From Coleofasciculus sp. FACHB-1120 (GTDB taxonomy: Bacteria > Cyanobacteriota > Cyanobacteriia > Cyanobacteriales > FACHB-T130): a stretch of DNA of 64,000 nt. Under the pieces are notes generated by a model. The model worked only from the letters and a program-made list of their open reading frames with translations. It ran no database searches and was not told the origin of the DNA. The stretch lies in contig NZ_JACJTV010000012.1 in the NCBI RefSeq assembly GCF_014698845.1, positions 62,001-126,000 of the forward strand, in the 5' to 3' direction. This document shows, piece after piece, positions 39,237 through 47,627 of the stretch; the first letter of the stretch is position 1, and the number at the start of each line of letters is the position of its first letter. The translations under genes were made by a program, and so were the position numbers.

Positions 39237-39284
39237 CAATTTGATTGCTCCTTTCCCGTGCAAGGCAGGAAGTTAGACTGTATG

Positions 39285-39470
39285 AAGGTACTAAGTAGGC
39301 ATTCTGGCTTCCGAGAGTCACCTCGTTTACAGCTGCCGCACAGCCCCGGATTTGCACCGGCGTTTCCCCACGTTGTTACCCTTTACGTGTGCCTTGATAT
39401 CTTAGCCGATCCGGTCACAGCTCAAAATCCAGGGGGAGGGGGTATTCCCAAGACTCTCCAGATGCCGGTT
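39285..39470 (-). promoter_or_regulatory. Cobalamin (B12) riboswitch
   Basis: On the minus strand the leader reads GGGGAAACGCCGGTGCAAATC then CGGGGCTGTGCGGCAGCTG, the conserved core of the AdoCbl aptamer, and further on GACTCTCGGAAGCCAGAATGCC, which pairs with the GGCATCTGGAGAGTC near 39455-39467 to close P1. About 50 bases separate it from the cbiX start, leaving room for an expression platform. Represses cbiX when coenzyme B12 is abundant, by family knowledge. Confidence 0.95.
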
Positions 39471-42968: not shown

Positions 42969-44033
42969 TCAATAGGGTGGCAATAACCTACGGAATCCAT
43001 GCAAGATGACCACAAGCATGAAAAACAGATTCCTCAGGAAAAGATTAGGTACGGGCAGAAACAATGCTCGTTGTTCTACACCCCGCTCAGAAACCTCAGT
43101 TAATCTCCTTCCCAATATTTCCATCCAATTAATATTTCTCGGCATTTCCCAAAGACCATCAAGCCACAGGGAGGGAATGCCAGCTTTGCCGACAGATGCC
43201 CCGATAATTCCGCCTAAAATTGCCGCTGTGGTATCTGTATCCCCGCCGCAACGAACAATTTCTAGGATGGCGGTTTGATAATCTTGCTGATATCTCAACC
43301 AGGCATAAATTACCACTGGCACAGTGTGATAAATATAGCCAGTAACGCCTGTGCCCAACCCCATGTGAGCAGCAAAGGATTCTGTACTTTCTTGGGCATC
43401 GGCGCTGTCGCAAGCTTTTTTAATTAGCTGCAAGAATTCACCAGCCTCTGTTCCTAGGATATTTTCAAGAGTGCGATAGTATTTTTGGGGAGAAACAGAG
43501 GATTGGTGGCTAGATAGATAGGATGCGATCGCTACTGCCAAAGCCCCATATTCTGCTTTTGGATCGGTATGGGTGATGCGGGTGGATACTCTGACAAATT
43601 CCCGTAATTTTTGGATGTCATCCCCATAACAGACGCCAATGATTGCGCTTCTCATTGCGGGACCATTTCCGGCGGAGAAGATACCAGCGCGATCGTAGGG
43701 AAATCCTAGCCAAAGCCTCAAAATAGCTTTTAAGGTAGCGTATCCGATACCTGCTGGTAGACCCAGTAACCAGAAGCGTAATTTCCAAGACAGTTGTTTC
43801 GCAAATATCTGGACATCCCCAGCCGCAACGATTAAAGCTTGAGCAACCATGCAGGTGTGTTCCGTATCATCGGAGACCATGCCTTTACCAAAGAAGAAAT
43901 GGTGGCTGTTTATTTGAGGATAAAGGCGATGTTGTCGTTGTTTGGATAAGCCTTCGTAAGGGAGTCCGATAGCATCACCTACAGCAGTTCCGAGTATACA
44001 GCCAATGATTGAGCCTGCTTTTTGAAGGGGCAT
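42969..44033 (-). CDS. ADP-ribosylglycohydrolase family protein
   Basis: 354 residues. Family hallmarks: GCILGTAVGDAIGLPYEG near residue 10, MVSDDTEHTCM with the metal-binding D-D-T, the ARGFKSTYP-like TRITHTDPKAEYGALAVA, and GGDTDTTAAILGGIIGA at the C-terminal metal site. Removes ADP-ribose from proteins or cleaves related compounds (DraG/ARH). In nitrogen-fixing bacteria DraG activates nitrogenase, but no nif genes are here. Immediately downstream on the minus strand of the GxxExxY unit. Confidence 0.9.
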   Translation of the reverse strand: MPLQKAGSIIGCILGTAVGDAIGLPYEGLSKQRQHRLYPQINSHHFFFGKGMVSDDTEHTCMVAQALIVAAGDVQIFAKQLSWKLRFWLLGLPAGIGYATLKAILRLWLGFPYDRAGIFSAGNGPAMRSAIIGVCYGDDIQKLREFVRVSTRITHTDPKAEYGALAVAIASYLSSHQSSVSPQKYYRTLENILGTEAGEFLQLIKKACDSADAQESTESFAAHMGLGTGVTGYIYHTVPVVIYAWLRYQQDYQTAILEIVRCGGDTDTTAAILGGIIGASVGKAGIPSLWLDGLWEMPRNINWMEILGRRLTEVSERGVEQRALFLPVPNLFLRNLFFMLVVILHGFRRLLPPY

Positions 44034-44043
44034 GGGATTAACA

Positions 44044-44075
44044 AACCGCGAAGACGCAAAGAGCGCGAAGGAAGA
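44044..44075. repeat. Left terminal inverted repeat of the GxxExxY unit
   Basis: 32 bp, beginning AACCGCGAAGACGC. It is a perfect inverted match to 44496-44527. It abuts the stop codon of the GxxExxY gene without a spacer. Confidence 0.9.
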
Positions 44076-44489
44076 TTAAGAAGAGAGAATGATGCGTTTA
44101 ATGCCTTCTTTGAGGATGTGAACGTTGAAGTTAATTAGTAAGCCGAGTTGACAACCAGTTACTTTCATGTAGGAAATAACTTGGGCAGAATGAAGAGAAG
44201 TTAAGGACTCAACTGCTTTTAATTCCACAACTAGAACATCGCCAACCAGAAAATCTAAGACATTCTCGCCAACCGTACAACCCTTATATTTCACTGGGAC
44301 TGGCTTCTGAGGTTGACAAGGTATCCCCCGCAACCGAAACTCCACCTCTAAAGATCCCTGATAAACCTTCTCCAAAAACCCTGGTCCCAACAACCGATGC
44401 ACCTCAATCGCCGCACCAATCGCATCATAAGCCAACCGCTCCACCTCTCCATCTAACTGCCTCATCATTCTTCTTTCTTCCTCGTTCAT
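44076..44489 (-). CDS. GxxExxY protein (PD-(D/E)XK-like)
   Basis: 137 residues. The name-giving motif is GFLEKVY (residues 36-42), and a nuclease-like core follows: [16 protein letters not shown], in which an Asp and E-x-K are arranged as in PD-(D/E)XK enzymes. C-terminal [21 protein letters not shown] is conserved in the family (TIGR04256/PF13366). Function is not established. The gene fills the space between two 32-bp inverted repeats exactly: its stop codon touches the left repeat and its ATG lies 6 bp from the right one, whose GAAGGAAG provides the ribosome-binding purines. The whole unit is 484 bp. Confidence 0.9.
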
Positions 44490-44495
44490 CTTCCT

Positions 44496-44527
44496 TCTTC
44501 CTTCGCGCTCTTTGCGTCTTCGCGGTT
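44496..44527. repeat. Right terminal inverted repeat of the GxxExxY unit
   Basis: 32 bp, ending GCGTCTTCGCGGTT; perfect inverted match to 44044-44075. An 11-mer next to it on the outside (CATTCTCTCTT) is the inverse of a string just inside the left repeat. No target-site duplication was identified. Confidence 0.9.
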
Positions 44528-44597
44528 CATTCTCTCTTCCCCTCCCCTACCGTATGGCAAAATTTATGTAAAGCCGTCTTCATTTAGTCTTCCCAGC

Positions 44598-47500
44598 ATG
44601 ACCGCACCAATCCCCGCCCTCGCCAGCCAATACGACCCCACGACGACAGAAACCAAGTGGCAGAAGTTCTGGGAAGAAAACCAAGTCTTCAAAGCCGACC
44701 CCAGTCATCCAGGTGAACCTTACTGCATCGTGATTCCGCCGCCCAACGTCACGGGTAGCTTGCACATGGGACACGCCTTCGAGAGTTCCCTGATTGACAC
44801 CCTCGTGCGCTACCACCGGATGAAGGGACGCAACACTCTGTGGGTACCAGGAACCGACCACGCCAGCATCGCGGTGAACGCCGTACTAGAAAAACAACTG
44901 AAGGCAGAAGGAAAAACTCGCCAGGAGGTGGGACGTGAGAAGTTTTTAGAACGGGCTTGGCAGTGGAAAACCGAATCTGAGGGAACCATTGTTAATCAGC
45001 TGCGGCGTTTGGGCGTCTCGGTGGATTGGACGCGGGAACGCTTCACGATGGATGAAGGCTTATCCAAAGCAGTGTTGGAAGCTTTTATCCAAATGTATGA
45101 GGAAGGACTCATTTATCGCGGCAATTACCTTGTGAACTGGTGTCCCGCGAGTCAATCTGCCGTGTCTGACTTGGAGGTGGATAATCAAGAAGTCAACGGG
45201 CATCTGTGGCACTTCCGCTATCCCCTCACGGATGGCAGCGGCTATGTGGAAGTAGCAACGACTCGACCGGAGACGATGCTAGGCGATACCGCTGTGGCGG
45301 TGAATCCCAAGGATGATCGCTACAAGCATTTGATTGGGAAGACGCTGACGCTGCCAATTATGGGGCGAGAAATTCCAATTATTGGCGATGAATTGGTCGA
45401 TCCGACTTTCGGGACGGGTTGCGTGAAGGTGACACCCGCCCATGACCCCAATGACTTTGAAATGGGTCAGCGTCACTCTTTGCCGTTTATCAACATCATG
45501 AATAAGGACGGCTCTTTAAACGAAAATGCCGGAGAATTTCAGGGACAAGACCGCTTTGTTGCCCGGAAAAATGTGGTGCAGCGACTGGAAGCAGACGGCG
45601 TTCTGGTGAAGGTGGAGGAGTATAAGCATACGGTTCCTTATAGCGATCGCGGCAAAGTCCCCGTTGAACCCCTCCTCTCTACTCAGTGGTTTGTCAAAAT
45701 TCGCCCTCTCGCTGACCGGGCGCTAGGGTTTCTAGACGATCGGAATTCACCGGAGTTTGTCCCAGAACGATGGACGAAGGTTTATCGCGACTGGTTAGTA
45801 AAGTTAAAAGATTGGTGCATTTCTCGCCAACTGTGGTGGGGACATCAAATCCCGGCTTGGTATGCGGTGAGTGAAACAGGCGACGCAATTACTGACGAAA
45901 CGCCGTTTGTTGTCGCACGTACCGAGGCAGAGGCACGAGAAAAAGCGGTCTCACGATTTGGGGAAAATGTCAAGCTGGAACAAGATCCAGATGTTCTCGA
46001 TACCTGGTTCTCTTCTGGTCTGTGGCCTTTTTCTACTTTGGGTTGGCCCGAACAGACGTCGGATCTCACAACCTACTACCCCACCACAACCCTCGTGACA
46101 GGCTTTGACATCATCTTCTTCTGGGTTGCCAGAATGACGATGATGGCGGGACATTTTACGGGACAAATGCCTTTCCAGGATGTTTACATCCACGGCTTAG
46201 TGCTAGATGAGAACGGCAAGAAAATGTCTAAATCTGCCAACAATGGCATCGATCCGCTGTTGCTGATTGACAAATACGGCACCGATGCCCTGCGCTACAC
46301 CTTAATTAAAGAAGTGGCTGGGGCGGGTCAAGATATCCGGATGGAGTACAACCGCAAGACTGATGAATCGGCTTCGGTTGAAGCTAGCCGCAATTTCACG
46401 AACAAATTGTGGAATGCTGCCCGGTTTGTGATGATGAATCTGGATGGCAAGACGCCGCAACAATTGGGGAACCCCACCCCAATCCTTCCCGTTGATGGGG
46501 AGGGCGAAACAAAAACTAACGGCGGGGATCTCGAACTCTGCGATCGCTGGATTCTCTCCCGCTACCATCAAGTAGTGCAGCAAACCGGCGACTACATCAA
46601 CAACTATGGTCTTGGTGAAGCTGCTAAGGGACTGTATGAATTCTTTTGGGGCGATTTCTGCGACTGGTACATTGAACTGGTCAAACCTCGCCTGCGCCCA
46701 GACGCCCCCGCTTCCTTGCGGTTGGTTGCTCAGCAAACTCTCGCTTATGTGCTGGAAGGAATTCTAAAATTACTCCATCCTTTCATGCCGCACATTACCG
46801 AGGAAATTTGGCATACGCTGACTCAAGCGAATGAAGGCAAAAGCTTAGCGTTGGAATCTTATCCCAAATCCGATCCAGCACTCATTAACCCGGATTTAGA
46901 GCAACAATTTGAGCTGCTGATTGGCACAATTCGGACGATTCGCAACTTACGGGCAGAAGCAGATATTAAGCCTGGGGTGAAGGTGTCAGCAATCTTGCAA
47001 ACTGAAAGCGATCGCGAACGGCATATCCTCTTGGCTGGGCAGTCTTATATTCAAGACTTGGCGAAGGTGGAAGAATTAACCATCCCCGGAACAGCCGAAA
47101 CCCATCCGCTAACTTCATCTGCTGAAACACCCAATCAGGTGGCGTCTGCCAAGGAAAAAGGCAACTTTCAAATCAGCCCAATTTTCTTGCCATTTTTACT
47201 GTTGCTGCCCTTGCTCTTTTTGGTGGGCATTGGTGTAATTGCGGTGGCAACAGTGGTCAAACAAATTCTCGGAAGCCGTGTCTCAGAAGCCAAACAAGTT
47301 GGTGCTACCAATCCTCCATCCACTGTCCCTCCCTCAGAATCGGCGAGTAATGTACAAGCAGAGACGCCACAAGCGATCGCAGGTGTTGTGGGTACGGTGC
47401 AAGTTTCGATTCCCCTCGCCGGTGTTGTCGATGTGGATGCTCTGCGTGGCAAGCTAGAGAAAAATTTGAACAAAGTTGAAGCAGAAGCAAAAGCCCTTTC

Positions 47501-47627
47501 GGGGCGTTTGAGCAATGCCAAATTTGTGGATAAAGCCCCCGCTGATGTCGTTAAGGGAGCGCGGGACACCCTTGCCGAAGCCGAGAAACAAGCAGAAATT
47601 CTGCGCGAACGACTGGCGCGGCTGTAG
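44598..47627 (+). CDS. valS: Valyl-tRNA synthetase with a hydrophobic insertion
   Basis: Charges tRNA-Val. 1009 residues, about 60-130 longer than usual. Class I motifs: HMGH in [13 protein letters not shown] near residue 56 and KMSKS near 542. Editing and anticodon-binding domains follow. Between residues about 840 and 930, before the C-terminal coiled coil ([18 protein letters not shown]), lies an extra segment with a hydrophobic run of about 30 residues (859-887, [20 protein letters not shown]) flanked by low-complexity sequence. Cyanobacterial ValRS can carry a CAAD domain with two membrane helices that tethers it to thylakoids; here only one long hydrophobic run is visible. The frame is continuous through it. 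Confidence 0.95.

Follow-up and report, generated by a model that had tools for sequence, protein, structure and literature searches.

Inverted arrays of short tandem units frame GxxExxY genes in many prokaryotic phyla and recur as dispersed repeats in most gene-bearing genomes

RESULTS

A GxxExxY gene lies between perfect inverted arrays upstream of valS

The window analysed is a 64-kb stretch (C12:62001-126000) of a 6.2 Mb host genome, hereafter G000, which its named relatives identify as cyanobacterial. Upstream of valS it contains a short unit, or cassette, in which a gene of the GxxExxY family is enclosed by two inverted arms. The features of the locus are:

42969-44033 (-), ADP-ribosylglycohydrolase gene, neighbour of the cassette
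44044-44527 (-), whole cassette (arm-gene-arm), 484 bp
44044-44075 (+), left arm: three-unit array with AACC at its outer end and the purine-rich tail GGAAGA at its inner end
44047-44053, 44055-44061 and 44064-44070 (+), left-arm units CGCGAAG, CGCAAAG and CGCGAAG, respectively
44076-44489 (-), GxxExxY gene (TIGR04256 / PF13366 PDDEXK_3), 137 aa, ATG start
44496-44527 (-), right arm: identical to the left arm, in inverted orientation
44518-44524, 44510-44516 and 44501-44507, right-arm units, the mirror of the left-arm units
44598-47627 (+), valS, neighbour of the cassette

Each arm is 32 nt long and consists of an array of three ~9-bp units, spaced by 8 and 9 bp; the two arms are 100% complementary and lie 420 nt apart. 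A first-pass annotation of this DNA, made from the letters alone, had described perfect 32-bp inverted repeats around a 137-codon GxxExxY gene, and this description was exact. Its placement of the gene also agreed with the coordinates: the stop codon abuts the left arm and the start codon is 6 bp from the right arm, whose purine-rich end falls in the ribosome-site region of the gene. As it had further claimed, nothing else is encoded in the unit; no other ORF of at least 60 aa was found inside the arms, nor any known transposase, the PDDEXK_3 gene being the only one present. The proposed family identity held as well. The window protein scored 135.2 bits with the TIGR04256 profile (cut-off 35) and 135.6 bits with the PF13366 profile (cut-off 22), and PF13366 was the only domain detected in it. 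The window gene is the sole TIGR04256 match in G000.

Within the 64-kb window, a 28-nt arm core with up to three mismatches matched only the two arms, and no match was obtained in 100 dinucleotide shuffles of the window. In 64 kb, a perfect 32-bp inverted pair within 600 bp would be expected about 2e-12 times, by simple arithmetic. No target-site duplication was visible by eye at the cassette, which is flanked by ...GGGATTAACA and CATTCTCTCT... At gathering scores, no Rfam family matched the arms at the window locus, and their identity with a known RNA family was discarded.

Other features were seen nearby. Another inverted pair, 13 nt long and free of mismatches (GAAGAGAGAATGA), has one copy inside the unit (44080-44092) and the other just beyond the right arm (44527-44539). 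A cobalamin riboswitch was detected at 39277-39412 (-), with 34.7 bits against a gathering score of 31.5. The ValS protein encoded at 44598-47627 has a strongly hydrophobic stretch ahead of its C-terminal arm, a feature known from the CAAD insertion found in certain tRNA synthetases of cyanobacteria.

Copies of the arm are scattered over the host genome

The annotation had suggested searching the complete genome and related genomes for the repeat. In G000, the 28-mer arm core gave 13 matches at up to three mismatches, six of them exact (two of these six are the arms); the reversed pattern gave none under the same conditions. Most copies other than the arms were single, with the same AACCGC start and the same purine tail. 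Such arrays lacking a gene will be referred to as solo arrays.

In the stretches of G000 examined, 8 of 20 array sites fell in stop-free frames of at least 130 aa. Three of the eight sat right at the beginning of the frame, while five lay deep within genes of known domain composition, corresponding to MutS, the MetH activation domain, CobN, a hydantoinase and a Mur-ligase-type protein. Relative to solved MutS, the repeat adds ~20 residues just before the P-loop region; for MetH, the alignment across the repeat was poor and gave no clean insert. These five in-frame solo repeats are the loci L271, L207, L269, L212 and L206, respectively, and the peptide NRKDAKxAKEE was read in four of them.

Genome G194 belongs to the same genus as G000. 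Of eight array sites taken from G194, six were followed in G000, and all six were occupied there. A solo-array site that was cleanly empty in either genome was looked for in these comparisons, but none was found. The site L264 of G194 is occupied in G000 too, where the array is split by a 24-bp insert, and at the site L267 of G000, G194 has another array type plus ~2 kb more. Judged from these sites, solo arrays look steadier than cassettes between the two genomes. The 24-bp insert that splits the G000 array (L277, on C1 near 279470) relative to L264 is GC-rich, and similar inserts were seen in the arrays of L204 and L287.

At least 7 of 20 arrays taken from genome G149 (L305, L306, L308, L309, L310, L312 and L314) were embedded in longer shared sequences of about 115-130 bp, which are dispersed repeats in their own right. 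Such arrays seem to be carried along by another element, and part of the dispersal therefore probably has a different cause. At an orthologous site, G149 (L303) has six copies, spaced by 81 bp, of an array that G155 (L317) has once. Dispersed arrays also occurred as hairpin pairs, with the terminal ends pointing inward in G241 (an acidobacterium; L325-L331) and outward in G234 (an archaeon; L333-L335).

Arrays frame GxxExxY genes across prokaryotes

A motif-free search, judged by eye, was applied to 31 cyanobacterial loci. In 28 of them the best inverted pair was an array of such units; the exceptions were L020, L041 and L044, of which the L020 row is unreliable because it lies at a short contig end, and this locus was left out of the oriented-motif count given below. 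At 80 further loci (the named loci), de novo inverted pairs scoring at least 13 within 200 bp were found across the gene in 46 cases, compared with 2 of 529 shifted windows; this threshold was picked after the scores were known, and a threshold of 12 gives 48/80 versus 10/529. The named loci are the best 80 of 573 or more and, having been selected by likeness to the clade with class-a units, they favour that clade; many of them come from metagenome-assembled genomes. Those with arrays on both sides belong to 14 phyla, including Methanobacteriota.

The class-a motif, CRCNRAG, was written after the arms of the cyanobacterial and named loci had been seen. With this proviso, tandem CRCNRAG in inverted orientation was present in both flanks of 75 of the 110 loci counted, in one flank of 21 and in neither of 14, while in the 322 shifted windows that served as a control these numbers were 0, 9 and 313. 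The expected orientation was observed 86 times upstream and 85 times downstream of the gene, and the opposite one 15 and 17 times, respectively.

A non-redundant set of 136 genes was then considered. Nine of the 179 loci that entered it held no full gene, and gene fragments together with the full matches G048 C487, G048 C111 and G030 C109 are excluded from the set, its flank count, the protein tree and the arm comparison. Ignoring orientation, arrays of one class occupied both flanks of 97 of the 136 genes, as against 1 of 348 shifted windows; arrays in at least one flank were found for 120 genes and 26 shifted windows. The first-pass annotation had held that protein and repeats form a pair, and that absence of the repeat around other GxxExxY genes would speak against this. 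Repeats of this type were in fact the rule around these genes, and the flanking sequences strongly support the pairing. That the arms are tandem three-unit arrays, that they belong to a dispersed genomic repeat and that framing is general for the family goes beyond what had been noticed at the start.

Carriage on plasmids appears to be rare, as far as the GxxExxY query used can tell (7 matching records of 72,556, five of which were retrieved). On the Sphingomonas plasmid NZ_CP155749.1 (L257), the gene lies between fabD and fabG of a fab gene cluster, and its start is immediately preceded by an array. Neither the phage collection nor PHROG gave a match, which leaves a phage origin unsupported. 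Membership of a known defence system was likewise unsupported, PADLOC giving only Cas4b at E 0.016.

Unit classes follow protein clades, and the two arms of a locus match

Several GxxExxY genes lacking CRCNRAG arrays had other units. Units of the type CGCAGATGAA surround L026 and L032; TGATT units with terminus GTCTAAACTATGATTT surround L187 and L041; AGGAT units with terminus TTGTCTGAATCAGGAT surround L179, L189 and L351; and CGGATTA units surround L192 and L348. The link of classes b-e to clades is descriptive, since it rests on two to four rows each and on motifs written after examples of those clades had been seen. When the class labels were placed on the protein tree, whose bootstrap had not settled, 13 changes were required, compared with 25.4 for shuffled labels, and none of 200 shuffles gave a number as low. 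Classes b, d and e took one change each, class c three and class a seven. Much of the remainder is accounted for by 16 rows without any class, in some of which (L259, L044) units are visible by eye.

Arms resembled each other much more within a locus than between loci (mean similarity 19.45 versus 10.27; the highest value in 2000 permutations was 11.76), and in 41 of 84 loci the own right arm was the best or tied match. Arm similarity tracked protein identity over all pairs and over pairs below 60% identity (0 of 500 permutations as high in each case). For pairs below 50% identity no tracking was detected, 80 of 500 permutations being as high.

Array-rich genomes tend to carry the gene

The gene was found in 40 of 194 cyanobacterial genomes, in 38 of them above the family cut-off. 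Arrays were counted with the pattern CRCNRAGRCRCNRAGR, its reversed form serving as control, and a genome was considered rich when its hits exceeded those of the reversed pattern by 10 or more and amounted to twice that number or more. By this measure, 31 of the 40 gene-bearing genomes were array-rich, compared with 9 of the 154 others, shared descent being included in these counts. Nine genomes were thus array-poor despite having the gene, and nine were array-rich without it. Within the order of G000, the proportions were 30/34 for gene-bearing and 6/29 for gene-less genomes or, counted by genus, 19/23 and 2/15. Among 40 further genomes, all gene-bearing since they were reached through 40 of the 80 named loci, 33 were rich and 37 exceeded their own control.

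The repeat of the TGATT clade, AATCATAGTTYAGAC, was present in 11 of the 194 cyanobacterial genomes. In genus g10, six genomes with a gene of this clade or a fragment of it had 223, 66, 16, 16, 16 and 10 copies, and two genomes without it had 1 and 0. Of other carriers of a TGATT-clade gene, G131 and G187 had no exact copy and G133 had one.

Cassettes turn over at fixed sites

At a site of genus g10 designated site I, the flanks of G149 and G155 are 95-98% identical, while the genes between them are only 77-78% identical and have opposite orientation. Each gene brings its own matching arms, TCACGCAAAGG... in one case and GTTTCGCGCAAAG... in the other. G153 and G072 have the arrangement of G149, and G103 that of G155. 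The two flanks of the site are separated in G064, G048 and G127, with the breaks at the arms, which may reflect rearrangement; these were not counted as empty sites. The two flanks of G064, at C1:3195906 and 3211018, are 14 kb apart and inverted with the break at the arms, and an array-mediated inversion is possible there. At site III of the same genus, G155 lacks a cassette and has its flanks nearly touching, while G149 retains end remnants without the gene. The state of G155 could result from deletion. No target duplication was seen at this cassette-less site which, together with the window unit, agrees by eye with the earlier remark that target-site duplications are missing.

Among the genomes examined, a GxxExxY cassette upstream of valS is present in six, of six families (G000, G211, G062, G215, G207 and G099). 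It is missing in three members of the family of the window, namely G194, G195 and G198, where its place is taken by a short palindrome, made of the outer arm ends in G194 and similar in the other two. Conservation of this locus without presence/absence variation, which the first-pass annotation had named as evidence against its reading, was therefore not what was observed. On the protein tree, the valS cassettes are spread over more than one branch. Those of G000, G211 and G215 (the window, L156 and L161) fall in a starred set of 13 that also includes cassettes from other sites (L203 of G099 and L169 of G039), while those of G099 (L039), G062 and G207 (L042 and L162) lie outside it. These positions fit repeated arrival, or exchange, of cassettes at the window's own site.

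The protein is a predicted nuclease of the RecB/Cas4 type

In an alignment of 20 members, the residues GxxE40xxY43, D79, E89-x-K91, H100 and Q103-x3-Y107 were invariant, and all are present in the window protein. The set D, ExK and QxxxY is that of RecB/Cas4-type PD-(D/E)XK nucleases. No invariant or nearly invariant column contained cysteine, and hence an iron-sulphur site of the Cas4 type is not apparent. The AlphaFold2 model of the window protein had a pLDDT of 94.1. In VIA-align, its best match was Cas4 SSO0001 (4ic1; Z 9.5, 101 residues, rmsd 4.3), followed by matches at Z 7.3 and below, a range that the tool calls common. Foldseek against the PDB placed LHK-Exo and lambda exonuclease first, and its top 15 went on to include Cas4 SSO0001, MGME1 and ACE1 of the Cas4 family; nothing reached E <= 0.001, the best value being 2.3e-3. 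Other Cas4 proteins, AddAB, MGME1 and exonucleases were among the lower matches. A sequence search for solved relatives returned none at E <= 1. The predicted fold thus resembles those of solved RecB/Cas4-type members, and the PD-(D/E)XK-like core that had been assigned to the protein earlier is borne out by its invariant motif residues and the likeness of the model to Cas4 SSO0001. No CRISPR protein was found among the three proteins tested at the window locus.

Among the open-access papers searched, GxxExxY is mentioned in passing in two and PF13366 occurs in one; TIGR04256, PDDEXK_3 and the six unit strings were found in none. A passage of PMC8934634 places a GxxExxY gene beside an RT and has it called cas4 by another tool.

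DISCUSSION

Comparison of the sequences establishes that GxxExxY proteins are paired with arrays, that protein clades correspond to unit classes, that the arms of a locus match each other, that arrays are dispersed in most gene-bearing genomes, that cassettes turn over and that the nuclease motifs are conserved; from this we infer that the nuclease cuts the arrays and mobilises them. The consistent framing by matching, clade-specific arrays suggests that protein and arrays act together. On balance, the 484-bp unit is probably an autonomous copy of a widespread element with two parts, a small nuclease and inverted arrays, of which the gene-less arrays would be non-autonomous copies. The nuclease would bind the successive units of its own array, about one helical turn each; units of 8-10 bp would place successive sites roughly on one face of the helix. 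It would then cut at or near this array, and repair of the break by homology would copy an array or a cassette into another array in a homing-like manner. Since the arms are inverted, copying could work in either orientation. Subsequent loss of the gene would leave solo arrays or palindromic stubs. With recognition of the own array, breakage and copying by repair, the missing target duplications, the swap in two orientations and the existence of gene-less arrays would all be accounted for. The small selfish element envisaged in the first-pass annotation fits the cassette swap at site I and the in-frame solo repeats; its movement by the nuclease is the part that we infer.

A broader proposal is put forward tentatively, as one that we hold to be somewhat short of probable. 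GxxExxY proteins may be the engines of pan-prokaryotic mobile repeats, that is, stand-alone Cas4-like nucleases that spread their own arrays, and sometimes their own gene, in a homing-like way. On this view, several abundant intergenic repeats, built from CRCNRAG, CRCAGAT, TGATTnn, AGGATnn or CGGATnn units, might be remnants left by different GxxExxY clades.

Among the alternatives, the one that fares best is that a resident nuclease recognises the arrays for the use of the host (for instance at hairpins, at stalled forks or in recombination at such palindromes), the arrays at the gene ends serving autoregulation and spreading by other means. The position of one arm in the ribosome-site region and of the other against the stop codon would suit such a role, as would the occurrence of the valS-upstream cassette in six families and the sharing of solo arrays by close genomes. 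However, a host function does not sit easily with the sporadic presence of the gene (40 of 194 cyanobacterial genomes) or with the exchange of whole cassettes, inverted and with their own arms, and unit classes that differ from one protein clade to the next are better accommodated by an element that recognises itself. We therefore regard host use as rather unlikely.

It is less likely still that an unrelated transposase of the MITE or REP type mobilises the arrays and that GxxExxY is a captured passenger gene. The G149 copies inside dispersed longer repeats are in line with this idea, and a small nuclease without a transposase partner would be unusual. A random passenger would vary, though. 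Here 97 of 136 genes of one family are framed, the framing extends over 14 named phyla, the arms match and their units are specific to clades, and the window arms enclose no second ORF of at least 60 aa. An action of the arms in RNA, as terminators, stability hairpins or a regulatory stem in the mRNA of the gene, is very improbable: a transcript running through both arms could fold back on itself, given their perfect inversion, but the arms are dispersed, also within coding sequences, they coincide with no Rfam family at gathering scores, and a hairpin requires neither a unit structure nor a clade-specific sequence. Chance or an assembly artefact can be set aside, given the absence of matches in shuffles and for the reversed pattern, the 2 of 529 shifted windows and the recurrence of the same architecture in independent genomes.

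The two-part element that we favour has its closest working parallel in the REP/RAYT system, although both enzyme and repeat are different here. Passages of PMC3116915 describe REP/REPIN repeats dispersed as singlets and inverted doublets, with the cognate repeat flanking the RAYT gene and with distinct repeat groups accompanying distinct enzymes within a genome; the GxxExxY cassette shares with that account a gene that has a dispersed repeat on its two sides. The REP/RAYT enzyme is of the Y1 (HUH) type and GxxExxY is a PD-(D/E)XK protein with Cas4/RecB motifs. REP repeats carry a GTAG-type tag, while the GxxExxY repeat consists of tandem 8-10 bp units without it: no GTAG was seen by eye on either strand of the window arm, and a single arm is not palindromic.

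The D, ExK and QxxxY motifs and the similarity of the model relate the protein to Cas4/RecB QxxxY nucleases and to lambda-type exonucleases. Unlike Cas4, it has only 137 aa, stands alone and shows no apparent iron-sulphur site. In the mode proposed here, copying of a gene into cognate sites without target duplication would be shared with free-standing homing endonucleases, and the cassette replacement at site I is compatible with such behaviour; the proposed site differs in being the terminal array of the element itself, with many copies per genome. Small size, inverted ends and gene-less derivatives recall MITEs and insertion sequences, but no target-site duplication was seen, there is no known transposase and the ends are tandem unit arrays.

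A common protein family for which no assigned function came to light is thus tied to short dispersed repeats in 14 named phyla. The GxxExxY family gains a testable substrate, and the repeats, for which no named partner came to light either, gain a candidate origin. If the nuclease does move the arrays, these would represent a type of mobile element whose enzyme class is unlike that of known repeat-associated systems, and arrays lying in frame in genes such as mutS would be a source of protein insertions.
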